Assembly (NCBI GenBank): GCA_031272035.1
Contig: JAISUO010000048.1
Span: 1-46,522, forward strand
DNA length: 46,522 nt
Direction: 5' to 3'
DNA from: Synergistaceae bacterium
GTDB taxonomy: Bacteria; Synergistota; Synergistia; Synergistales; Aminobacteriaceae
The notes below the pieces were generated by a model. That model had not been told where the DNA came from and made no database searches. It saw only the letters and a list, made by a program, of their open reading frames with translations. Both the position numbers and the translations under genes were made by a program. Positions 7,868-35,004 of the stretch are shown here, in pieces. How positions within the stretch are numbered: the stretch's first letter is position 1; each line of letters starts with the position of its first letter.

Positions 7868-8527
7868 TCAGTGCCGTTCTCGATATTCTTTGATCCGGGC
7901 GTGCCATTCGGGCACGTCGCCCTCCGGAGGAACCGTCTCCTCTCCCAGCAGCAGGTCGACGAGATACCGCGGTTTCTTCCCTCCAAAATGCATCGAGCGG
8001 ACGCAGGTCACGCAGTAGACCGCCACCTCGTCGCAGGGCATGGAAGCGGCGCGCTCCTTCATTCTCGCATGAATCTCCTCCAGAGGCAGATCCGGGTAAT
8101 AGCTGTCCCCGCAGCATCGGGACGAGGCGGCGTGAAGGGCCGCTTCCACAACTTCGATGTTCATCTTCTTCAGGAGACTCCGGGCCGCCCTGTGAACCTG
8201 GGGCTTCGATCGAATCGGACAGGGGTCGTGGAGGCTCATTTTCCGGCCTTTGTAGTCCGGGTACTGAATCCCCTCCACACCGTCCAGAACCTCCCAGAGG
8301 GTCAGAGTGGAAATTCCCTCGTACAGCTTGTTAAAACGTCTGTCGCACCCCGCGCACACCACCACGATGCAGGACCCCTTTTCCACCTGGGGATCGTGGT
8401 GACAGCAGAGACTGTGCAGCTCCACATTCCCGTCGTATTTGTCGCGCAGCAGCTTCAGAAGCGCGACCTCCGCCTCCGGTTTGTGGATGGTCAGAGCGCA
8501 GCCTGGATTGAAATACGTTTTCCCCAT
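7868..8527 (-). CDS. HdrB-like Cys-rich (CCG-domain) protein
   Basis: 219 residues containing two CCG-type cysteine motifs. The first is C10, C41-C42 (followed by His rather than Gly), C58-x2-C61. The second is C103, C138-C139-G140, C172-x2-C175. Such paired motifs bind non-cubane iron-sulfur clusters in heterodisulfide reductase subunit B and occur in GlpC, LutA and related redox proteins. No HdrA, HdrC or flavoprotein partner is nearby, so the electron route is unknown. The start is the ATG at 8527, which GAGAGG precedes by six bases; the ATG six bases earlier is a poorer choice. It follows oppF by 44 bases and is probably in the same transcript. Confidence 0.82.
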   Translation of the reverse strand: MGKTYFNPGCALTIHKPEAEVALLKLLRDKYDGNVELHSLCCHHDPQVEKGSCIVVVCAGCDRRFNKLYEGISTLTLWEVLDGVEGIQYPDYKGRKMSLHDPCPIRSKPQVHRAARSLLKKMNIEVVEAALHAASSRCCGDSYYPDLPLEEIHARMKERAASMPCDEVAVYCVTCVRSMHFGGKKPRYLVDLLLGEETVPPEGDVPEWHARIKEYRERH

Positions 8528-8571
8528 CTTCATCCTCTCTTTTCTCTCTGTGTTTTCTCTCTTTTCTTTGT

Positions 8572-9366
8572 TTAAAGTCGGGGCAGGGCCGCCAGCAGCG
8601 CCTGAGTGTAGGGATGAGTCGGTTTTTCCAGCAGGTCGGCGGCAGAACCGGACTCCGCGATTTCCCCCTTCCAGAGAACCAGAGCGTACTCCGCGGCGTA
8701 ACGGGCAAGCAGCAGATCGTGAGTCACGAGAATCATGGACATTCCCCTCCGAATCCGGCGGCTCAGAACGTCCAGCACCTCTCCCCGGGTAGAAACGTCC
8801 TGCATGGCGGTGGGCTCGTCCGCCAGAAGCAGCTCCGGCTCCAGAATCAGAGCCCGGGCTATGGCCACCCTCTGACGCTGGCCCCCGGAAAGGGCATGGC
8901 GCACACGAACGTTCCACAGGGATTCGGGCAGCTTCAGCTCCGTCAGAAGTTTCTTCGCCCGATTCAGCCCCTCTTCCCTCTCCCGCCGGGAAGGGTGCAC
9001 AAGGGTCCAGGGCTCCAGAACGGCCCCCAGAACCGTCAGCGTCGGCGGCAGAGAGCTGTAGGGGTCCTGGGACACGTACCCGCAGCGACGGCGCATGGTC
9101 TGGCGTTCTTCCGCCGTCATTTCGGCCAGATCCCGCCCCTGAAAGGTCACGCTTCCCTCCGTGGGAGGCACGAGGCCCAGGAGCGCCCGCAGCAGGGTGG
9201 TCTTTCCGCTGCCGGATTCTCCCACGATGGACAGGGTTTTACTCTCTTTTTCCAGGTTCAGGGAAAAGTGCCGCAGAGCCCAGACGCCTCCCCTTTCAAT
9301 CCCCGGGAGTTTTCGCCGTCCCTCAAAATGTACCCCCAGGTCCGTCGCCGTCAGCAGCGCCGTCAT
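8572..9366 (-). CDS. Oligopeptide ABC transporter, ATP-binding protein (OppF/DppF-like)
   Basis: 264 residues with a complete ABC ATPase core: Walker A GESGSGKTT, Q-loop in YVSQDPYSSLPPTL, signature LSGGQRQRVAIARAL, Walker B LLLADEPTA and H-loop VTHD. The C-terminus (KPTHPYTQALLAALP) is the standard end of peptide-importer ATPases. It would pair with the next ATPase to drive the OppB/OppC channel. The ATG overlaps the stop of the upstream ATPase gene by four bases, so translation is coupled. Confidence 0.93.
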   Translation of the reverse strand: MTALLTATDLGVHFEGRRKLPGIERGGVWALRHFSLNLEKESKTLSIVGESGSGKTTLLRALLGLVPPTEGSVTFQGRDLAEMTAEERQTMRRRCGYVSQDPYSSLPPTLTVLGAVLEPWTLVHPSRREREEGLNRAKKLLTELKLPESLWNVRVRHALSGGQRQRVAIARALILEPELLLADEPTAMQDVSTRGEVLDVLSRRIRRGMSMILVTHDLLLARYAAEYALVLWKGEIAESGSAADLLEKPTHPYTQALLAALPRL

Positions 9367-10175
9367 GACTCGGCCTCCGCGACCAAAGCCCCCGGCCGCT
9401 CCATACGCCGCAGAGCTTCGATCAGCTCCCGGGTCGAAGGGCTTCGGGGATGTTCCACCACCTGACGGCAGGGTCCGTTTTCAACGATGCGGCCCTCCTT
9501 CATCACAACCAGGCGGTCGCAGATCCCCGCCGCCAGAGGCAGATCGTGGGTCACCAGCAGAAGCCCCATACCGCGGCTTCGCACCAGAGACACGATCATG
9601 CTCAGCACTTCCTTTTGGGTGACCACGTCCAGCGCCGTTGTGGGTTCGTCCGCCAGCAGAAAATCCGGATCGCAGGCCAGAGCCGTCGCCAGCGCCGCCC
9701 GCTGTTTCTGCCCGCCCGAAAGCTCGTGGGGATAACGGGCGAAAAAGGACGTCTCCAGTCCGGTGGTTTTCAGCAAATCCATGGCGCGGTTCCTGGCCTC
9801 CTCCTTCTTCATATGGAAATGGAAACGCAGAACTTCCATGATATGACCGCCAATGGAGATCTGAGGGGTGAAGGAAGCCCCCGTCCCCTGGGGAACCAGA
9901 GCGAAACGACGCCAGCGCCAGGTGTTCAGCGCCTCTTCTCCCAGAGAAAGGAGGTTCTCCCCGTCGCACAAAATCCGGCCCGTAACGGCGGTTCCTCTCG
10001 GCAGAAGACGGGGGATGGCCATCAGCACGCTGGTCTTTCCGCTGCCGGACTCTCCCACGAGGCCCGCCACATCTCCCCGGGATACGGAGAAACTGCATTC
10101 CCGAACGGCCGGAATTTCACCCCTGGGGGAGGAATAGGTGACGGAGAGATTTTGTATATCCAGCGTCACGCTCAT
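9363..10175 (-). CDS. Oligopeptide ABC transporter, ATP-binding protein (OppD/DppD-like)
   Basis: 270 residues with Walker A GESGSGKTS, signature LSGGQKQRAALATAL, Walker B FLLADEPTTALD and H-loop VTHD. It is somewhat short at the C-terminus compared with OppD proteins (often 320 or more) and lacks the usual cysteine-rich end. The ATG overlaps the oppC stop by four bases. Together with the ATPase downstream it forms the heterodimeric motor of the peptide importer. Confidence 0.92.
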   Translation of the reverse strand: MSVTLDIQNLSVTYSSPRGEIPAVRECSFSVSRGDVAGLVGESGSGKTSVLMAIPRLLPRGTAVTGRILCDGENLLSLGEEALNTWRWRRFALVPQGTGASFTPQISIGGHIMEVLRFHFHMKKEEARNRAMDLLKTTGLETSFFARYPHELSGGQKQRAALATALACDPDFLLADEPTTALDVVTQKEVLSMIVSLVRSRGMGLLLVTHDLPLAAGICDRLVVMKEGRIVENGPCRQVVEHPRSPSTRELIEALRRMERPGALVAEAES

Positions 10176-11404
10176 GCCGCGGGCCCCCCTTCTCCGTCGC
10201 CCCGGCCGTTACGGAGGGAATCCGCTCCCGCCGCGCCGGGCGGCAGTTCCTGAGAAAGACGGGGGTCGGCTCGCTCCTCCAGCCGGCGTCCTATGTCCAT
10301 AAAAATCAGGCATATCAAAGAAATACCCAGCCCCGGAGGCAAAATCATCCACCACGCCCCGTTGGTGAAGGCCCCAAAGGTGTGAGCCTCGTGAAGCATA
10401 CGCCCCCAGGAGGGCAGTCGGGGATCGGAGAGGCCGAGAAACGCCAGCCCCGCCTCGGCGAGAATCGCTCCCGGCACGCCCAGGGCGATGTTCGCCAGCA
10501 GCAGGGGAAGGGCCTCCGGCAGCAGATGACGGAAAAGAATGTAATTTCGCTTCGCCCCCAAAGCTCTCAATCCCTCCACCCAGGGCGCGTCGCGCAGGGT
10601 GAGGGTCAGGGAGCGCACCGTGCGGGCCGTTCCCATCCATGAAAAAATCGACAGGATCAAAACGAGGTTCCACAGGCTTTTACCCCACAGGCCGGCGATG
10701 ACCATCAGAATCGGCAGCGTGGGAATGGAGAGCAGCACGTCCACAGCCCGCATGATCAGAGCGTCGGTGAGGCCCCCCGCGTAACCGGACAAAAGCCCCA
10801 GAGACAGCCCCGCCAGAGTCGCGATCAGCGTGGCGGCAATGCCCACGATCAGGGATATGCGAATACCCCGCACGAACAGGGCGGCAACGTCTCGCCCCCG
10901 CTGGTCCGTCCCCAGAAGTCCCCATCGACCGCCTTCAATCTTCATGAAAACATCGCCGCTGCCCACCAGGGAAAGACGATATTCTCCCTTTTCGGGGAAA
11001 AGCACCGCGGCCATGTTCACAAAGGGCCCCAGCCCCATGGCTTTTTTGAAGGGAATATCCCGGGCGTCCAGGTCAAGCTCTCCGGCGCCGGAGGCCGGAA
11101 CGAACCGCCCCGATGGCGTGATCCATCGCAGCTCTCCCTTCTCCCCCAGGCTTCCGGTCAGGGAAACCCTCAAAGGAGCGGCATAATTCCAGTTCAGGAC
11201 GACTTCCGGTGGAACCGGCGTGTCCTCCGCTCCATCCACATGCAGAACCTCCACCGGAGCGATGGAGTCGTCCATCCACTCCGGCTTCGAATACGGCGGC
11301 GCCTGAGGACCGTCTTTCAACCCCAGAGTCTCGGGCCCCAAAAAAGCCATCAGCACCAGCAGCAAAAAACAAAAAGGGGCGACCTGATGAAAAATACCTT
11401 TCAC
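10172..11404 (-). CDS. Oligopeptide ABC transporter permease (OppC/DppC-like) with a large extracytoplasmic insertion
   Basis: 410 residues, against about 300 for typical OppC. Helix 1 (about 7-24) is followed by roughly 130 residues of hydrophilic, beta-rich sequence. The canonical GTDQRGRDVAALFVRGIRISLIVG entry and the five-helix permease core come next. The EAA loop, EGLRALGAKRNYILFRHLLPEA, is intact, so the channel should still dock with the ATPases. The insertion lies outside the membrane, where it could contact the binding protein. A GTG at 11404 is used, with GGAG ten bases upstream. It is separated from oppB by two unrelated genes. The last 35 residues are charged and Gly-rich. Confidence 0.9.
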   Translation of the reverse strand: MKGIFHQVAPFCFLLLVLMAFLGPETLGLKDGPQAPPYSKPEWMDDSIAPVEVLHVDGAEDTPVPPEVVLNWNYAAPLRVSLTGSLGEKGELRWITPSGRFVPASGAGELDLDARDIPFKKAMGLGPFVNMAAVLFPEKGEYRLSLVGSGDVFMKIEGGRWGLLGTDQRGRDVAALFVRGIRISLIVGIAATLIATLAGLSLGLLSGYAGGLTDALIMRAVDVLLSIPTLPILMVIAGLWGKSLWNLVLILSIFSWMGTARTVRSLTLTLRDAPWVEGLRALGAKRNYILFRHLLPEALPLLLANIALGVPGAILAEAGLAFLGLSDPRLPSWGRMLHEAHTFGAFTNGAWWMILPPGLGISLICLIFMDIGRRLEERADPRLSQELPPGAAGADSLRNGRGDGEGGPAA

Positions 11405-11474: not shown

Positions 11475-11527
11475 CAAAACAGATTATTAACACAGGTTCT
11501 TAAAACAGGTTTTTAAAACAGGTTAAT
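11475..11527. repeat. Four tandem 13-bp degenerate repeats overlapping a stop codon
   Basis: Units of the form TAAAACAGGTTNT lie at 11475-11487, 11488-11500, 11501-11513 and 11514-11527. The last unit encodes the final residues of the neighbouring 290-residue protein, and the stop codon falls at the unit boundary. Confidence 0.7.
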
Positions 11528-12385
11528 GGAGGAATCTTTGCGGGATTCCTGCGATTCCTGCTCTTCTTTTTCCTTTTCGTACTGTTCGACCAGAGCGTCC
11601 ACCTGTTCGAGGTTGATCTGCACGCAGTTTTGAAGGTCGAACAGGGTGAAACAGTCCTCGGCGTAGGCCCGGCAGTCGCTCATCTCAATATCTCCGATCT
11701 CCCGGCGCTTCACTTCCCCGCGCCATTCCGGGAACCGGTTTCGAATCTCCAGGGCCAGCTTTTCCGCCTGTTCCTGGGCGTCGTGGTGACGCACCGAGTA
11801 GACCACGAAAAGCGAGAAAACGCAGGGGACCTCCGCGGGAGGCTCTTCTCCTCTGGGGTCGTAGTCGATCCAGTAACCCATGACGTTGGCGGTGTACTTC
11901 TTACCCTCGTTTTTCATGTAGCTCCAGAGAGGCGCCGTGCGGGCCAAAAGGGACTCCGGCAGAATTTCGCGGCGATAGCGGCAGCAGAGCCAGTTTTGCA
12001 GGGTTATCTTCGCCTTTTCCTCGAAGAAGAAATTTTTGTCCGGCTGCATGGCGGGGATGATGTTGTGCTTGGAGATGGCGAGGCGCAGGGACCCTCGCAG
12101 CTCCACCACGGCCGGCTCTCCGTCGAAGAGACAATCCAGGTGCAGGAGGCTCGGGTGCTTCGCGTGGGTCAGCTCCGGAGATGCCGTCGGAATCCGCTTG
12201 GCTCCCACAAATTCCACCATGGGCTCCAGCACCATGTTGTCGTTCATGATGTCTCCGTCATGAGAAACAACACAAAGATACGTGATGTCTTCGTTCAGTG
12301 TCTTTACCAGGCCGGGATTGTAATTTCTCAGAATATCCACGTTGATCATACTGCATTGACGCCATTTCGTGTCTTTGTTCCACAT
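11513..12385 (-). CDS. Protein of unknown family, within the interrupted opp operon
   Basis: 290 residues, soluble, no signal peptide or membrane helix. I do not recognise the family. Visible features are a mixed alpha/beta middle with several aromatic-rich strands (such as YTANVMGYWIDYDP and VFSLFVVYSVRHHD). The C-terminal tail is strongly charged (Glu/Lys/Gln-rich, about 255-285) and likely helical. The start ATG at 12385 has GAGG eight bases upstream. It begins three bases after the upstream helix-turn-helix gene ends, so the two form a pair, and both lie between oppB and oppC. Its 3' end runs into a tandem repeat array. Confidence 0.7.
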   Translation of the reverse strand: MWNKDTKWRQCSMINVDILRNYNPGLVKTLNEDITYLCVVSHDGDIMNDNMVLEPMVEFVGAKRIPTASPELTHAKHPSLLHLDCLFDGEPAVVELRGSLRLAISKHNIIPAMQPDKNFFFEEKAKITLQNWLCCRYRREILPESLLARTAPLWSYMKNEGKKYTANVMGYWIDYDPRGEEPPAEVPCVFSLFVVYSVRHHDAQEQAEKLALEIRNRFPEWRGEVKRREIGDIEMSDCRAYAEDCFTLFDLQNCVQINLEQVDALVEQYEKEKEEQESQESRKDSSINLF

Positions 12386-12388
12386 GAT

Positions 12389-14002
12389 CTATACCTCGCA
12401 ATACAAGGGAGTCGAGTACAGCGTTACCGTATGCTGGAACGGGTGAAAAGGTTTCGTCGCCCCTTTGGGCTTGCGACGCAACTCTTCGACCCTCTGCGCC
12501 ATTTCTTTCAGAATCTTCAGATCCTGTCCTGTTATTTTCTGTCTCTTCAGCTTATGCAGGAAAAGCTCTCCATCCGGGAAAGGACGTCGGGCCGTGGCGC
12601 CGATGCGGGGAACGGCGACCTGCTCCACCCGATCCGCCACCTCCAGGCAGTACAGCAACAGCTCCTGCTGAGCGGCATTGGGGGCCCTGTCGCTGAACCA
12701 GGAATATAACACTCCGGGAGAAACCTCGAAAAGAAACGCCAGGTCCTCGCAGGAAAGCCCCAGGATTTTTCGAAGCCGCACCAGCTGCTTGCCCGTGGCG
12801 GTTGGCTCCGAAACCTTTTTTCCGCCCTCCGGTCCGGATTTCTGTTCGGTGGAACCCGTCGGGAAGAAGGGCGCTTTTTTGGGCTCCTGCGGTGGCGTGA
12901 ACTTCTCGAAATCCGTGGAGACCATGGGTTCTTCGATTTTTTCCGATGGTTCCGGCTTCTCGATTTTGGGAAGCTCCTCTGCCTTCTCAGCATTTTTCAA
13001 ATTTTTGTCGGACTTCGTGAACTTCGACATGGCCGCGCTTCCAAAGGAAAACAGGGAGGAAACCTTCGGACGCTCCCCTGCCGTCCCCTCTGCGGAGGAC
13101 TTCTCCGTCCCGCCCTCCGTTCGACCGGACAGACCGGCCAAAAAGTCCCTGACGTCCCTGGCCGCGCCCCTGGGGGGCTGTTCGGGCTCCGAAGACCTGC
13201 GAAGCTCGTCGAAACGCTCGGAGCGGACGGGCATGAAGAAGTCGTCGGAGGGAGCGGGGGAAGCGTGAGGCTTTCCGCCCGTTTTCGACGCGTCTTCCAC
13301 GCCTGAAACTTCACCTCTGGGCGTCCGTTCGGCCGATTTGCGCTCCGTTCCTCCGTCGAAATAGCCTTTTTCCTCTGAAACCGGAAAAGGTTCCGAATCC
13401 ATATAATACTTGTCCTTTATATCCTGAGCGGACCCCCTGTCGGGGGAGTCGTCAAGACGCGAGGAGCGCACCGGAGCGTAAAAATCGTTGAGGCTGTCCG
13501 CATCCGTGAAAAATCCCGCCCCCTGGTCCGTCGCCGGAGCCGGATGAGGCTCTTCCTTCACCTTCCCCCCGAAGAACTCCACCGACTCGTCCATCCAGGA
13601 TTTGGTGTAGGTTATTTCTTCTTTCACGGTTTTGGGCGCGTCCGCTTTTTGGGGCGGCTCCACCTTTGGAATCTCCGGTTTTGGAGTTTCCACTTTTGGG
13701 ATTTCCACTTTCGGGACTTCCGGTTTTGGAATTTCTGTTTTTAAAACTTCTGTTTTTAAAACTTCTTCCGCCATCGGTTTCGGTGCGGGTTCCGGCTTTG
13801 CCGCATCCGGCGTCGTTTTCTTCGGCTGCAGGGCGTCCATTTTCCCGGCCTCATCCAGCAGGTCCGCAAGCAACTTTCCGTCGGAAATACCGGCAAAGCG
13901 CAAAAAGGACACGTAACTGACGACCTTTTGAAGGTCCGCTTCACTCAGCGCGCAGATCATTCGATAAAGTTTCTCCCGGTCCACGGATGGCCCTTTCGTC
14001 AC
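12389..14002 (-). CDS. Large Pro-rich protein with a C-terminal helix-turn-helix
   Basis: About 537 residues. The frame can be opened upstream to 14089, but that would overlap oppB. AAAGGGG sits eight bases before the GTG at 14002, which is the better start. The N-terminal 40 residues form a small helical segment. Next is a run of imperfect Lys-Pro-Glu-Val repeats (PKVEIPKVETPKPEIPK style), then a long acidic disordered middle with two related FY/FF-x-PVRS-x-R-x-D motifs. At about residues 425-490 there is an XRE-like helix-turn-helix (LRKILGLSCEDLAFLFEVSP followed by a Trp-Phe recognition-helix end). The role is unknown; a regulator tethered through a flexible arm is a guess. Confidence 0.72.
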   Translation of the reverse strand: MTKGPSVDREKLYRMICALSEADLQKVVSYVSFLRFAGISDGKLLADLLDEAGKMDALQPKKTTPDAAKPEPAPKPMAEEVLKTEVLKTEIPKPEVPKVEIPKVETPKPEIPKVEPPQKADAPKTVKEEITYTKSWMDESVEFFGGKVKEEPHPAPATDQGAGFFTDADSLNDFYAPVRSSRLDDSPDRGSAQDIKDKYYMDSEPFPVSEEKGYFDGGTERKSAERTPRGEVSGVEDASKTGGKPHASPAPSDDFFMPVRSERFDELRRSSEPEQPPRGAARDVRDFLAGLSGRTEGGTEKSSAEGTAGERPKVSSLFSFGSAAMSKFTKSDKNLKNAEKAEELPKIEKPEPSEKIEEPMVSTDFEKFTPPQEPKKAPFFPTGSTEQKSGPEGGKKVSEPTATGKQLVRLRKILGLSCEDLAFLFEVSPGVLYSWFSDRAPNAAQQELLLYCLEVADRVEQVAVPRIGATARRPFPDGELFLHKLKRQKITGQDLKILKEMAQRVEELRRKPKGATKPFHPFQHTVTLYSTPLYCEV

Positions 14003-14030
14003 GAAAAAAACCCCTTTCCGAATGTAAAAA

Positions 14031-14996
14031 TCATTGTACACCGCCCCGACGGACGCGAGGATCGACCAGTACGCAAAGCAGGTCCGCAAGAAGATTGCAG
14101 CCCACCGTCAGGAGCGCCAGAAGAAAAAACGCGGCCCCCGCCGAGGGATAATCGTGGGAATTGGTGGCCTCCAGCAGAAAACGGCCCGCTCCGTTCAGGG
14201 AAAACACCGTCTCCGTAATCACGGCTCCGCTCACCACTCCCGGCAGGGAGAGCAAAAGGATCGTCACCACGGGGGGCAGCACGGATCGAAAGGCGTGGTT
14301 CCAGATCACACGCCTTCTCGGCAGTCCCCGGGCAATCGCCATGAGAACATAATCTTCTCCCAAAGCCTTCACCATCATATTGCGAACGTAAAGCGCCCAG
14401 CCCCCGAAACTCAGGACGACCAGGGAAAACAGGGGAAGCGCCAGATGCCACAGGTAATCCACCGCTCCCGCGAGACCCGTCCGGGGCGGAATGGAGGAGC
14501 TGCCGCTCAGGGGAAAGATCGGCCACAGCCACGCGAACCCCATCAGCAGAAGAATCTGCACGAAAAACGAGGGAAAGGAAAAGGACGCCGCGCCGCTCCA
14601 GAGCACAAGCCGCTCCACAATCGAGCCACGTCTCAGCGCCGCCTTCACCCCCAAAAAGATGCCCAGAGCCGCGGAAAACAGCAGCGCCGGAAGCAGAAGC
14701 GCCACCGTATTGGGAACGCGGTTTTTCAGCTCATCCCACACCGGCTGCCCCGTCATCATGGACAGCCCAAACCGGAAGGACAGCATCTCCCGTATATAGA
14801 CGAAAAACTGCTCCCTCAGAGGCCGGTCCAGCCCCCACTGAGCGGCGAGCTGCTGTTTCGCCTCAGGGGAAAAACGCGGATCCACGATGCCGGTCAGAGG
14901 ATCCCCGGGCATGATGCGGAAAAGAAAGAAGTTCAGCACCAGCACGATCGCCAGCACCGCCAGAGCTCCGCCGAGACGCTTCGCAAAAGCCTTCAT
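14031..14996 (-). CDS. Oligopeptide ABC transporter permease (OppB/DppB-like)
   Basis: 321 residues with six membrane helices. Family marks include the opening LAVLAIVLVLNFFLFRIMPGDP, the loop RFGLSMMTGQPVWDELKNRVPNT, and the ATPase-docking loop ARGLPRRRVIWNHAFRSVLPPVV. The length is normal. The ATG at 14996 follows GGAGGGAGAAGA. It comes 48 bases after the binding-protein gene and pairs with the OppC-like permease encoded further downstream, beyond two unrelated genes. Confidence 0.93.
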   Translation of the reverse strand: MKAFAKRLGGALAVLAIVLVLNFFLFRIMPGDPLTGIVDPRFSPEAKQQLAAQWGLDRPLREQFFVYIREMLSFRFGLSMMTGQPVWDELKNRVPNTVALLLPALLFSAALGIFLGVKAALRRGSIVERLVLWSGAASFSFPSFFVQILLLMGFAWLWPIFPLSGSSSIPPRTGLAGAVDYLWHLALPLFSLVVLSFGGWALYVRNMMVKALGEDYVLMAIARGLPRRRVIWNHAFRSVLPPVVTILLLSLPGVVSGAVITETVFSLNGAGRFLLEATNSHDYPSAGAAFFLLALLTVGCNLLADLLCVLVDPRVRRGGVQ

Positions 14997-15044: not shown

Positions 15045-16847
15045 TCAATTCATCATTATCGATACGGCGTCGCTCACCGCCCGGGCGGAAGGGGTGGAAA
15101 CCGCGGCGGGAGCGTACAGCAAATAATGTTCGTTTCGCGTCATGTGCACGTACTCCCCCGTTCGGGACTCCCGAAAGGTGAAGGGCCCCGTCCCGATCAG
15201 TTCGGTCATCTCCGTGCCGTCCAGCGCCGAATGAATGCGCAGCGTGGGCTGCCAGGCCCGCCAGTCCGGCACATTTTCCAGAATGTGTTTCGGCAGAACC
15301 GGCATTCCTCCAATGTTGTGCAGGTGCCAGTAACTCGTATTCGCCAGGGCCACGCGCAGAATCCGCGAGTCTTTGTCGACCTCAATGGATTCAATATCCT
15401 TTACGCTGTCATAAAAACGGGGAATATTACGATCTTTGATGTACCCAAGGGAAAAAGCCACGTCCTCCACGGTCAAAGGCCGGCCGTCCTGCCATTTCAG
15501 CCCGTCTCGCAGCGTAAAAGTGAGGACCGAGCCCTTTTCTCCCGTCGTGATGTCCCAGCTCTCGGCCAGCCAGGGAACGTCCTCGAAGGTCCAGGGGTCC
15601 ACGGAAAGCATTGAGTCGTAAATCGTTCCCAGCACCGTCCAGTCATAGGCCGTCGTGGAAACAAAGGGATTCAGCGTCCGGATTTCCTCGGGAATATTCC
15701 AATAGATGGGCCGGTCCGGGCCTTCCTTCGGGGTCATGGAAATGAGCGTCAGCATGTTGTCCGAGGTGGAGCGCTCGGTGGTGAAAACGCCGTTCCAGTC
15801 GCTGCGTATCGCCGCCACCGAATAACGGCTGTAGATGGGCGCCACCGGAACCAGCCGGCAGAGAAGTTTCTGGGCCTCCAAAGCCCGAACCCGCGCCGCG
15901 GCCTCGTCGGGAGCGTAACGCAAGCCGGCCAGAACGCCGTCCAGCTCGGGGTCCGCGATGCCGCTCAAATTATACCCTCCCTCCACGTCCATGGAAGAGT
16001 GATAAAAAGCGTAAAGAACGTCCGGATCCCGCGACATCGTCCAGGCGTTGGTGCAGGCGTCGAAGTCATGACGGTCCACCCGGGCCAGCATGGTCTGAAA
16101 GTCGATGGGCTCCGCCTCCACGGGAAGCCCCAGCTCGTTCAGCGCGTCCGCCATGAGCTGGGCGATTTCGGTGGTCGTCGCGGCCACGGAGGAGGGCGGG
16201 CAGAGAATCTTCGTCGGAGGAACCGGTTGTCCGTCCGGCGCGATCAGCCGCCCGAACCGGTCCCAGGTCCACCCGGCGGAGGCCAGACGGCTGCGGGCCG
16301 CCTCCATCCCCTGCGGAAGTTCCTCGGGCGACGGGTCGCACCAGGGAGAAACAGGCGGCAAATACGTGGTCAGAGGCTCGCAGTATCCGGAGAACAGATC
16401 CCGCGTCCACTGCCGGCGCTGAACCACCTGCGCCGCGGCCTGCCGAAGCTCCACCCGGTTCCAGGGAAATTTTCGAGTGTTGAAAGTAATCATAAAAGAG
16501 TGAAAGGTAGGGGCAAGAGACAGCTCCACCCCTCCGGACTCAGACAGCCGCCGGATGTCCGCCGGACGGTAAATGTCCGACAGAACGTCGAGTTTGCCCG
16601 TGGACATGGCCAGAAGCTGGGCGTCCATATCCCGGATGACGGGATAATAAAGGTCCTTCATCCTGGGGCCCTCAAACTGGAAAATATCGAAGGACGAAGC
16701 CAGAGCGGGCGGAGGAGAAAGAAGCGATACGAAAACGGCGCAAAAAAACACCGTAAAAAACGTAAGAGAGAAGAAGGCAAACAAAGGCTCCTTCGTCAAA
16801 CGTCCCCAAAAACGCGCTCCGGTGCGTTTCATCGCCTTTTCTCTCAT
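15045..16847 (-). CDS. Peptide-type solute-binding protein (SBP family 5) with circularly permuted domain order
   Basis: 600 residues. Residues 1-50 are a signal or anchor segment ending near ALASS. Residues about 53-355 match the normally C-terminal part of family-5 binding proteins: hinge region STGKLDVL...PADIRRL (82-101), FNTRKFPWNRVELRQAAA (122-139), and the final VPVAPIYSRYSVAAIRSDWNGV (333-354). Residues about 377-580 match the normally N-terminal part: TLNPF (391-395), YDSMLSVDPWTFEDVPWLAE (410-429), the family signature LRDGLKWQDGRPLTVEDVAFSL (446-467) and GTGPFTF (552-558). Both halves together make one complete protein in swapped order. The start at 16847 has AAAGGAG six bases upstream. 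It precedes oppB, as a receptor gene should. Confidence 0.88.
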   Translation of the reverse strand: MREKAMKRTGARFWGRLTKEPLFAFFSLTFFTVFFCAVFVSLLSPPPALASSFDIFQFEGPRMKDLYYPVIRDMDAQLLAMSTGKLDVLSDIYRPADIRRLSESGGVELSLAPTFHSFMITFNTRKFPWNRVELRQAAAQVVQRRQWTRDLFSGYCEPLTTYLPPVSPWCDPSPEELPQGMEAARSRLASAGWTWDRFGRLIAPDGQPVPPTKILCPPSSVAATTTEIAQLMADALNELGLPVEAEPIDFQTMLARVDRHDFDACTNAWTMSRDPDVLYAFYHSSMDVEGGYNLSGIADPELDGVLAGLRYAPDEAAARVRALEAQKLLCRLVPVAPIYSRYSVAAIRSDWNGVFTTERSTSDNMLTLISMTPKEGPDRPIYWNIPEEIRTLNPFVSTTAYDWTVLGTIYDSMLSVDPWTFEDVPWLAESWDITTGEKGSVLTFTLRDGLKWQDGRPLTVEDVAFSLGYIKDRNIPRFYDSVKDIESIEVDKDSRILRVALANTSYWHLHNIGGMPVLPKHILENVPDWRAWQPTLRIHSALDGTEMTELIGTGPFTFRESRTGEYVHMTRNEHYLLYAPAAVSTPSARAVSDAVSIMMN

Positions 16848-16911
16848 CGCCTTCTCTCCTTTCCGTTCAAATTTTCCGGCCTCAAATTCCGGAGGGTTTC
16901 TTTCATCGGCC

Positions 16912-17576: not shown

Positions 17577-18710
17577 TCACACGGACTTTTTGCGGGCGAA
17601 GAACAGCGGGGCCGCCAGCAAAAGGGCTCCCAGCCCGAAGGCGCTGCAGGTACCGCCCCTGTCGTCCTCGTGCTCGGCGTTGGCGTCGTCCAAGGGGTTG
17701 ACCCGCAGAGTGACGGACTGAGTGGAGATGGTGCCCTCTTCCTCTTCGTTCTGGTAACTCACCACGTCCTCAATCGTCGTTCCGTCCGCCGTGGTCCCGG
17801 CCAGCGCGATCGTGTAGGAGAAAAACGTGTAGGCCGGGTTGTAAAGATCGCCTTCCGTCCCTCCGGTGTTGATCGCGGAAAGGGTCAACGTGGCGATTGT
17901 CGTCGGGTATCTGGTCTGAGTGGGCGTCAGGCCCAGCAGATTGGAGTGGGACGCGCTTGCCCTGGCGATTGACGGGTCGTCCACAACCACGGTGGGAGTC
18001 ATCGTATAGCCCGTAGCACTGACAGGGAAGATAAAGTAGTCCAGGTCGTCGATCTGGTGATCTCCGTTGAAGTCATCCGTATCCACGTAGAGAGTCGTCG
18101 TCGAACCTCCCGTGATCGAAATCTGCGAGGTGATCTTATTGTGGTTCCCGTCCCGGATGCTCATGCTTTTGGGAATATACAGGTAATACAGATCGACAGT
18201 GGCAGTCGTCACAAAGCGAATGGGGAAAACGCTGGAATAAGCGAACGTGGTCGGGCTTGTCACATCACCCTGACCATACTCCAGCTGAAAAGTCATCGTA
18301 GTGTTGATCACATCAGTCGCCGTGACCGCAATCGTCCCTATTCTTTCCGAAAGGGTGGAAGTGAGGCCCATACTGGAGCCCTGAGCAATAAAACTGGAAG
18401 ACAGTCCTGCCACAGAGCCGGTATCTGCAAGACTTACGTAGATACGTGCATCATCGCTTACAGTCCATTGATGAAGGTCACTGATATCAAGAATGCCATC
18501 GTCATTGCTGTCTCCCGCGTACACATTCAGCAGCAGCGTCTGATGCGGGGCGATGTAAACGGTGCCTCCCGGCTGAATTTCCGCGCCCGTATCCTGCCGA
18601 AATATCCTCATCTGACGCAGTGTATAACAGACCGACGCATGAGCTTCCTGAACACCAGCCAATACAAATACCGCTGCCAGCAACAACAAAACCGCTGTCG
18701 ATTTCCTCAC
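17577..18710 (-). CDS. Surface or secreted protein with Synergist-CTERM sorting tail and dockerin-like calcium loops
   Basis: About 377 residues from the GTG at 18710, which GGAGGG precedes by seven bases; longer upstream openings are weaker. A signal peptide (1-27, ending AHAS) leads to a beta-rich, Thr/Ser-rich body. Two EF-hand-like loops of dockerin type are visible: GDSNDDGILDISDLHQW (near 65-81) and DDFNGDHQIDDLDYF (about 210). The C-terminus has a Gly-Gly-Thr-Cys-Ser start, a hydrophobic stretch and Ala-Arg-Lys-Lys, matching the Synergist-CTERM pattern thought to be processed and anchored at the cell surface. No cohesin partner is in the window. It is a single-gene unit with its own terminator. 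Confidence 0.82.
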   Translation of the reverse strand: MRKSTAVLLLLAAVFVLAGVQEAHASVCYTLRQMRIFRQDTGAEIQPGGTVYIAPHQTLLLNVYAGDSNDDGILDISDLHQWTVSDDARIYVSLADTGSVAGLSSSFIAQGSSMGLTSTLSERIGTIAVTATDVINTTMTFQLEYGQGDVTSPTTFAYSSVFPIRFVTTATVDLYYLYIPKSMSIRDGNHNKITSQISITGGSTTTLYVDTDDFNGDHQIDDLDYFIFPVSATGYTMTPTVVVDDPSIARASASHSNLLGLTPTQTRYPTTIATLTLSAINTGGTEGDLYNPAYTFFSYTIALAGTTADGTTIEDVVSYQNEEEEGTISTQSVTLRVNPLDDANAEHEDDRGGTCSAFGLGALLLAAPLFFARKKSV

Positions 18711-18902
18711 AGTAAATCCCTCCAGCTTCAAGTTTCGCTTTAAATTTTTCAACAATAAATAATAAATTTCCCGGATCTTTTTTCTTATAAAGAACATCCT
18801 CAAAAAATACTTTCGCCATTATATCATTCAAAATATATGTAAAAAAGGCTTATTTGAGAAAAACAGAATTTTTTTATTACTGATGAAGCACATGAAACAG
18901 GC

Positions 18903-33498: not shown

Positions 33499-35004
33499 TC
33501 ATTCCGTCTCCAGACGGACCTTCCGGAAGGAGTGGTTGTCGCCCGCCCCCGCGATGAAGCCTTTCACGTATTTTTGAGTTCCCACAAGGGCGTCGTCACT
33601 GTGCAGGTAGACCATCGGCGTCTGCTCGTTGATGTAGAGCTGCATGTCCCTGTAGATCGCCGCACGTTCTTCGCTGTCGGGCAGACTGCGTCCTTTGGCC
33701 AGAAATTCGTCCATTTTCGGATCGCTGCAGGAGAAATAGTTGGACCCGGCCCCCGTTTCCAGAAGCCCCACCACCGAAAAGTTGGGATCGGGAATGGAGG
33801 ACACCCATCCCATGATAAACAGATCGTGGGCCTTTTCCCGAAGTCCCTTCAACAGCGCGCCCCACTCCAGAATTTTGATTTCGACGTCGATTCCCACCTC
33901 CTGAAGCTGGGCCTGAATGATCGTCGCCATGTCGATGCGTTCCTTGCGCTCGTTGGTCCAGACCTGAAGTTTGAGGCCCTTTACCCCCGCCTCGGCCAGC
34001 AGTTTTTTCGCCGTTTCCACGTCCTGCGCGTGAGGGGAAATTTCAGAGTCGATGGAATAACGGACCGGAAGGGGAATCAGAGACCTCGGAACCCGCCCGA
34101 CCCCGCGCCAGACGACCTTATCGATGCCCTCCGTGTCCAGAGCCAGAGAAATGGCCCGACGCACCCGAACGTCATCCAGAGGCTTCTTCGCGAAGTTGAA
34201 CCCCAGATAGTGGACGGAGGTCTGAGGCTGACGGATGAGGTCCAGCCGCTCATGCTCCTCCACCCGCCGCAGGTCGTTGGCAGCGAGGGGATAGGCGATG
34301 TCCACGCCGCCGGTCTCCAGTTCGATCATGCGGTTGGTGGGCTCAGGAATGGAGCGAACCTCCAGGGTTTTGAAATTTATCTTCGGCCCCCAGTAGTCGT
34401 CGAAGCGTTCCAGAACGTACCGGTCGCCCTTTTGCCAGCTCACAAATTTGAAAGGCCCCGTTCCCACGGGATTCATGCCGTAGTTTTCCCCCGCGGCCTC
34501 CACGGCCTTTCGATTGAGGATGGAAGTCCAGTTGTGGGTAAGCGAGGGAAAGAAGGAGTAATCGGCGGCTTTCAGACGGATAATCACGGTGTAATCGTCC
34601 AGAACTTCCACATCCGCGATATTTTTGGAGTAGGCCGCAACTCTGGCCCCCGCCGGCGTCGTCGCTCTCATGAGAGAAAAACGGACGTCGTCGGCCTTCA
34701 TCTCCTCCCCATTATGAAAGCGAACGCCCTTCCGGAGGTGCATTTTGAACTCGGCCCCCGAGAGAAACTCCCAGGATTCAGCCAGCCCGGGCTTGAACTC
34801 CCCCGTTTCGGGATCGAGAAAAATCAGCGTATCGTAGACGGACAGACAGGCTCTGCCGCTGGGAACATCGTTATGCGCCACAGGATCCATGGTGGTGGCG
34901 TCGTACTGGTCGGCCACGATCAGCCGATCCTTCGCCTCCGCTTCACCGTACAGAGCGCAAGCCAGAATACAACATATCGCCAGGACAAAAACGTTCTTCT
35001 TCAC
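33499..35004 (-). CDS. Peptide/nickel-type ABC solute-binding protein, canonical domain order
   Basis: 501 residues with a signal peptide ending EAEA. The order is the usual one for family 5: an N-terminal part with YDATTMDP, YDTLIFLDPETGEFKPGLAE and the signature LRKGVRFHNGEEMKADDVRFSL; then VGTGPFKFV and ERFDDYWG; then the second lobe with ETGGVDIAYPL, GFNFAKKPLDDVRVRRAISLAL and a C-terminal FSVVGLLETGAGSNYFSCSDPKMDE. It is an orphan receptor with no permease beside it, so it may serve a transporter elsewhere. GTG at 35004 with GGGAGAGG seven bases upstream. It has its own terminator. It is a useful reference for the permuted protein at 15045-16847. Confidence 0.93.
   Translation of the reverse strand: MKKNVFVLAICCILACALYGEAEAKDRLIVADQYDATTMDPVAHNDVPSGRACLSVYDTLIFLDPETGEFKPGLAESWEFLSGAEFKMHLRKGVRFHNGEEMKADDVRFSLMRATTPAGARVAAYSKNIADVEVLDDYTVIIRLKAADYSFFPSLTHNWTSILNRKAVEAAGENYGMNPVGTGPFKFVSWQKGDRYVLERFDDYWGPKINFKTLEVRSIPEPTNRMIELETGGVDIAYPLAANDLRRVEEHERLDLIRQPQTSVHYLGFNFAKKPLDDVRVRRAISLALDTEGIDKVVWRGVGRVPRSLIPLPVRYSIDSEISPHAQDVETAKKLLAEAGVKGLKLQVWTNERKERIDMATIIQAQLQEVGIDVEIKILEWGALLKGLREKAHDLFIMGWVSSIPDPNFSVVGLLETGAGSNYFSCSDPKMDEFLAKGRSLPDSEERAAIYRDMQLYINEQTPMVYLHSDDALVGTQKYVKGFIAGAGDNHSFRKVRLETE

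Follow-up and report, generated by a model that had tools for sequence, protein, structure and literature searches.

The window, that is, the whole stretch of 46,522 nucleotides analysed (contig JAISUO010000048.1 of a Synergistaceae bacterium), contained at 15045-16847 a gene for a 600-aa solute-binding protein (SBP) of family 5 in which the two parts of the chain stood in exchanged order; this protein and its relatives of the same order are called cp1 here. The gene lay on the minus strand, with its ATG at 16847, and not on the plus strand, a correction to a previous sequence-only reading. That reading was right in describing a single open frame with a ribosome-binding site inside an opp operon: 600 codons were preceded by AGGAGAG (16854-16860, minus strand, 6 nt before the ATG) and flanked by genes of the OppB, OppC, OppD and OppF types. 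Residues 1-51 (16695-16847, minus strand) formed a signal peptide region, a hydrophobic stretch ending in PPPALASS, and the homologues likewise started with a hydrophobic signal-like segment; by inspection only, this hydrophobic N-terminus with its Ala-rich end, in the window protein and homologues, corresponds to that of an exported family-5 SBP. The canonically C-terminal part came next (residues 56-355; 15783-16682, minus strand), delimited by Pfam, PDB and HMM matches and comprising, as mapped to EppA (PMC7312458), the rest of lobe 1, hinge strand 1, lobe 2 and hinge strand 2. At the fused junction (residues 356-378; 15714-15782, minus strand) the canonical C-terminal strand was joined to the canonical N-terminal strand (..DNMLTLISMTPKEGPD..), and the canonically N-terminal part, domain I of lobe 1, closed the order (residues 379-577; 15117-15713, minus strand), ending after NEHYLL at the new C-terminus.

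The other operon genes were also on the minus strand and encoded an OppB-type permease (14031-14996), adjoining the SBP in the loci examined, an OppC-type permease of 410 aa (10172-11404), an OppD-type ATPase (9363-10175) and an OppF-type ATPase (8572-9366). cp1 therefore stood in the operon context of family-5 SBPs, with OppB/OppC permeases and OppD/OppF ATPases. Two minus-strand frames of unknown family, neither with a Pfam match, separated oppB from oppC, at 12389-14089 (the true start being probably later than the listed TTG) and at 11513-12385; they were found in the window only, the operons of the relatives examined being uninterrupted. Among large contigs and closed genomes examined, the order SBP-OppB-OppC-OppD-OppF was constant where all genes were detected, and no other conserved neighbours of the cp1 operon were found. 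Elsewhere in the window, a minus-strand gene at 17577-18803 encoded a secreted-looking protein of 408 aa with EF-hand/dockerin-like repeats (DSNDDGILDISDL, DDFNGDHQIDDLDYF), a weak FG-GAP match and a C-terminal hydrophobic anchor, and a cysteine-rich CCG-type protein resembling an HdrB-type heterodisulfide reductase domain was found downstream of oppF (7868-8917, minus strand), in a long frame with no Pfam match and a start that is probably internal.

The only family recognised by hmmscan in the 600-aa protein was SBP_bac_5 (PF00496; E 2.7e-56), in two stretches, the best of which aligned residues 61-284 with model positions 146-363, so that the C-terminal part of the model fell on the N-terminal side of the protein. 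Both halves together scored 191.7 bits, above the gathering cut-off of 32.4, and covered the model, although not in collinear order. The two swapped matches foreseen from the sequence were thus obtained, and a single collinear match, which would have contradicted the permutation, was not seen. The protein encoded at 33499-35004, which had been named as the canonical counterpart, gave one collinear PF00496 stretch (model 1-365), and canonical order was likewise found in all seven paralogues of this genome for which each half had a match. When the window protein was un-permuted in silico (residues 371-577 followed by 58-366), one collinear Pfam match was produced (model 3-363), with a higher score than the natural order (206.3 vs. 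191.7 bits), together with collinear PDB matches to 3t66, 5isu, NikA, AppA and others. As found, the protein was split by its PDB matches in the same way throughout; for 3t66, phmmer aligned query residues 61-316 with chain 186-432 and residues 379-491 with chain 13-118, and the joint (~residues 356-378) was crossed by no best stretch among the 60 matches listed.

The same picture was obtained with an HMM of 502 positions built from 31 canonical relatives. All 31 canonical proteins matched it once and collinearly, whereas the window protein matched in exchanged order (residues 56-355 to positions 203-486, and residues 368-591 to positions 15-218), as did all of the 26 diverse cp1 proteins tested. 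In these 26 the first part began at model position 199-208 and the last part finished at 204-218, which places the cut at ~205; the ends being complementary (cut at ~204-208 in 26 of 26), the two parts add up to one full-length protein, as the sequence-only reading had held. Self-concatenated cp1 sequences mostly gave one match spanning the copy boundary, as in L031 (model 16-487 of 502 in one match, 288 bits). A linker of 9-22 residues joined the original termini in cp1. Complementary ends together with joined original termini make this a circular permutation in the strict sense, and we conclude with high confidence that the protein at 15045-16847 is a natural circular permutation of a family-5 SBP.

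To place the cut on the fold, the window protein was compared with EppA, whose domains are I (27-256), IIa (257-302), III (303-530) and IIb (531-563), with hinge strands at 295-302 and 531-538 (PMC7312458); in AliD, lobe 1 is formed by 29-296 plus 583-617 and lobe 2 by 297-582 (PMC11192437). Residues 58-340 of the window protein aligned with 244-529 of EppA (6wm6), on the assumption that chain numbering equals residue numbering, which puts the new N-terminus near EppA residue 244, about 50 residues ahead of hinge strand 1. From this alignment, the new termini map within lobe 1, near the border of domains I and IIa, and not at the lobe boundary where they had been placed before. Because the cut precedes hinge strand 1, both hinge strands survive, at residues ~109-116 and ~342-349 by the mapping to EppA. 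The expectation that the fold could survive, formerly argued from a lobe-boundary position, stands and is if anything strengthened.

The predicted structure agreed with the permutation, without proving the fold. When AlphaFold2 was first given the whole protein and 22 close relatives, pLDDT was 53 and pTM 0.45, and that model was set aside; for the mature protein with a shallow alignment, mean pLDDT was 66 and pTM 0.66, a moderate confidence, with the N-terminal 40 residues and the junction poorly predicted. Foldseek matched this model in the PDB to the family-5 proteins NikA, AppA, DppA and MppA (E ~1e-12), and the top 50 matches were family-5-type SBPs, along which the chain was aligned only in part sequentially. 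The sequence-ordered alignments covered only ~270-330 columns, with TM ~0.4; such partial alignment is expected for a permutation, since an aligner of this kind fits one moiety at a time.

A second permutation, with its cut at another site, was also found; the swapped case is not isolated. The protein L100 of one Synergistota genome (5614-7293, minus strand; 559 aa) had the second part of lobe 2 on its N-terminal side, then a C-to-N junction, then lobe 1, and the first part of lobe 2 at its C-terminal end. Together with L137-L148 it made up 13 proteins, termed cp2, all of which matched the canonical HMM in swapped order with the cut at 340-350, inside lobe 2, vs. ~205 in lobe 1 for cp1. Apart from the Synergistota genome, cp2 occurred in haloarchaea and Alphaproteobacteria; single-piece collinear relatives were detected by tblastn on plasmids of Halalkalicoccus, Haladaptatus, Natrononativus, Halobaculum and Halorussus, and also of Roseomonas, Microvirga, Neorhizobium, Ketogulonicigenium, Nitratireductor and Maritalea. 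In the annotated loci examined, cp2 headed an importer operon, usually in the order SBP-permease-permease-ATPase-ATPase, often near peptidases, amidohydrolases or hydantoinases. Its annotation was merely ABC transporter substrate-binding protein; as Pfam-based annotation hides the order, other family-5 permutants have probably been overlooked in databases. Among canonical family-5 SBPs, one of Cytobacillus plasmids (L151:2953-4755) had a C-terminal transmembrane anchor (ILLVAVIGFILLRRKKK).

In the most likely origin of the cp1 order, a binding-protein gene would have been duplicated in tandem, the two copies fused in frame and the outer pieces then lost. A short linker would have connected the ancestral N- and C-termini, which both lie in lobe 1, new termini would have opened in a loop of lobe 1 (canonical ~205), after the 'YW' preceding 'GPK', and the signal peptide would have been placed ahead of the former middle of the protein. 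This most likely happened in the ancestor of the order Synergistales or earlier, with vertical inheritance since. A close un-permuted relative of cp1 was not found, and the evolutionary step itself was not seen; frames of 850-1100 aa in relatives, considered as tandem-fused ancestors, were rejected, all being canonical and owing their length to the open frame. A presumed precursor state is the plasmid of Rhizobium sp. RCAM05350 (L136:3500-6500), where two canonical SBP frames stood in tandem and mimicked a permuted match in tblastn, which calls for caution in automated permutation searches.

Two independent permutations need not have occurred, as cp1 and cp2 might descend from one ancestral C-to-N fusion trimmed at two places; we take this to be a serious, if somewhat doubtful, possibility. 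BLASTP of cp1 against cp2 was unbroken through the fused junction (119 bits), and the two junctions had in common a W-x2-L..EP-like motif that was not seen at the canonical C-termini compared. That motif, however, was picked after the sequences had been seen, and it may be older than the fusion, given that a similar strand (YIDIQPVK) closes L114, a canonical neighbour of cp2. In the tree of un-permuted sequences, cp1 formed one clade (100/100) and cp2 another (98/95); the best tree separated them, each beside a long-branch canonical protein, whereas a joint clade of cp1 and cp2 was not rejected by the AU test (p 0.155).

As to function, cp1 most likely serves an Opp/Dpp/Nik-type importer in the ordinary way, as a high-affinity receptor that would dock on OppBC; with the hinge strands kept it should preserve its fold, close on the ligand like a Venus flytrap and support import, handing the ligand to its dedicated OppBCDF. 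The best solved relatives were nickel- and peptide-binding proteins, at low identity. In DppA, the peptide amino group is bound by Asp408, within WTGD. The position that we take to be its counterpart in cp1 was not acidic (WTMS or WQMT, ahead of a conserved DPD), which argues weakly against cp1 being a classical dipeptide binder.

The permease, in turn, had a peculiarity. The OppC of cp1 operons was ~100 residues longer than ordinary OppC, with an insert of ~110 aa in the first periplasmic loop; in the window this enlarged loop covered approximately residues 23-164 (10913-11338, minus strand), with 143 aa from TM1 to the GTDxxGRD motif. Nearly every cp1 operon with clean gene calls had 126-149 residues over this distance, vs. 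22-32 in the canonical OppC proteins measured, a few OppC frames with mis-called starts yielding larger values. A search with the OppC N-terminal region found 105 genomes, 104 of them with cp1 as well; one of the two features occurred singly in five genomes, mostly incomplete (77-91% complete). In a model of pneumococcal Ami, it is the corresponding loop of AmiD, between TM1 and TM2, that touches lobe 2 of the SBP (PMC11192437), so that a docking role for the OppC insert may reasonably be proposed by analogy. cp1 could then take a family-5-like shape and yet act with the enlarged loop as a specialised docking pair, or as a sensor or accessory, instead of an ordinary importer receptor. The position of the insert in this loop, its joint occurrence with cp1 and the far shorter length of most canonical and cp2 OppC proteins examined point that way; genes of one operon co-occur in any case, however, and cp2 is permuted without an insert of the cp1 kind, which means that permutation does not require it. 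We consider this proposal unlikely, and the ordinary receptor remains our reading of cp1. A broader view, which we offer tentatively and with limited credence, would be that family-5 SBPs were permuted at least twice, at different loops and keeping the same hinge strands, and that the Synergistales permutation co-evolved with a new periplasmic docking domain of OppC, with a docking geometry unlike that of all known Opp-type importers.

Relatives of cp1 were searched in 61 related genomes and then in 188 genomes of the phylum Synergistota, where it was found as a single full-length collinear relative in 108 genomes and 46 of the 63 genera. It occurred nearly always in one copy per genome, at 42-79% identity, in 10 of 10 sampled families of the window's order (Synergistales) and in none from the family outside that order; carriers included several closed or one-contig genomes. 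Beyond the phylum, coverage consisted of plasmids, the PDB and genome contigs scanned for close relatives, and those that the scan named were Synergistaceae and Synergistales. The single-piece match on the Rhizobium plasmid was rejected as cp1, consisting of the two tandem canonical SBPs, and viral contigs scanned with the family alignment gave two weak partial matches, none permuted. Values of dN/dS were ~0.1-0.2 in both moieties (window gene vs. four relatives), indicating that both are under purifying selection. A pseudogene, namely a fused and non-working remnant of two decaying tandem SBP genes, might be suspected because duplication and deletion are the likely route of origin, but it is very improbable in view of the open frame, signal peptide and ribosome site, these dN/dS values, ~80 invariant residues across 36 diverse members and the constant operon; a few relatives had stops within the match or cut copies, but most were intact. 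That two ordinary neighbouring SBP genes were joined in assembly or made into a chimera is hardly credible, even though the window is one of the 122 contigs of a draft and tandem SBP genes can mimic the order, as in the Rhizobium plasmid, because the homologues of like order that the sequence-only reading had proposed to look for beside oppB turned up in over 100 further genomes, each assembled separately and several of them closed, with the same collinear product and the same cut.

Family-5 SBPs are among the most abundant bacterial nutrient receptors and a common scaffold for engineered sensors. An order-wide permutant and a second one in archaea and bacteria show that rearranged topologies are tolerated in this fold and retained; cp1 and cp2 are natural test cases for the constraints that termini, hinge crossings and permease docking place on ABC importers. 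In the open-access literature searched, no circular permutation of a family-5, OppA, DppA or cluster C protein was described, in keeping with the earlier statement that no case was known in this family, and no solved chain with the cp1 or cp2 order was among the PDB matches listed. OpuAC/ProX had been considered as a precedent and was dropped, permutation not being mentioned in the open paper on it.

Compared with the canonical proteins of family 5 / cluster C (OppA, DppA, NikA, AppA, CtaP, and EppA), cp1 has the whole of PF00496, both hinge strands and a signal peptide and likewise leads an Opp-type operon, and differs in that its chain starts and ends at canonical ~205 with the original termini joined. 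It shares with cp2 (WP_238532955.1 of Halalkalicoccus jeotgali, WP_237182973.1 of Roseomonas marmotae, and L100) the family-5 sequence, the fused C-to-N junction and the leading position in an importer operon, whereas cp2 is cut in lobe 2 (~340-350), occurs in archaea and Alphaproteobacteria and lacks an OppC insert like that of cp1 operons. That a binding protein can be permuted in nature was already known: TpMglB-2 (Tp0684) of Treponema pallidum is a natural, phylogenetically conserved permuted ABC binding protein ('Type Ic / Cluster Bc') whose crystal structure has been solved and which binds glucose and closes on its ligand (PMC4990184), a precedent for a permuted binding protein that works. 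Natural and conserved like cp1, it is nonetheless a type I, cluster B sugar-binding protein of an unrelated sequence family; cp1 does not share that fold, its sequence falling in PF00496 and its PDB relatives being family-5 proteins. Moreover, the permutation of TpMglB-2 adds a fourth hinge crossing, whereas cp1 and cp2 keep the usual two. What makes cp1 unusual is its order-wide conservation, the occurrence of two permuted topologies within family 5 and its link to a modified permease.
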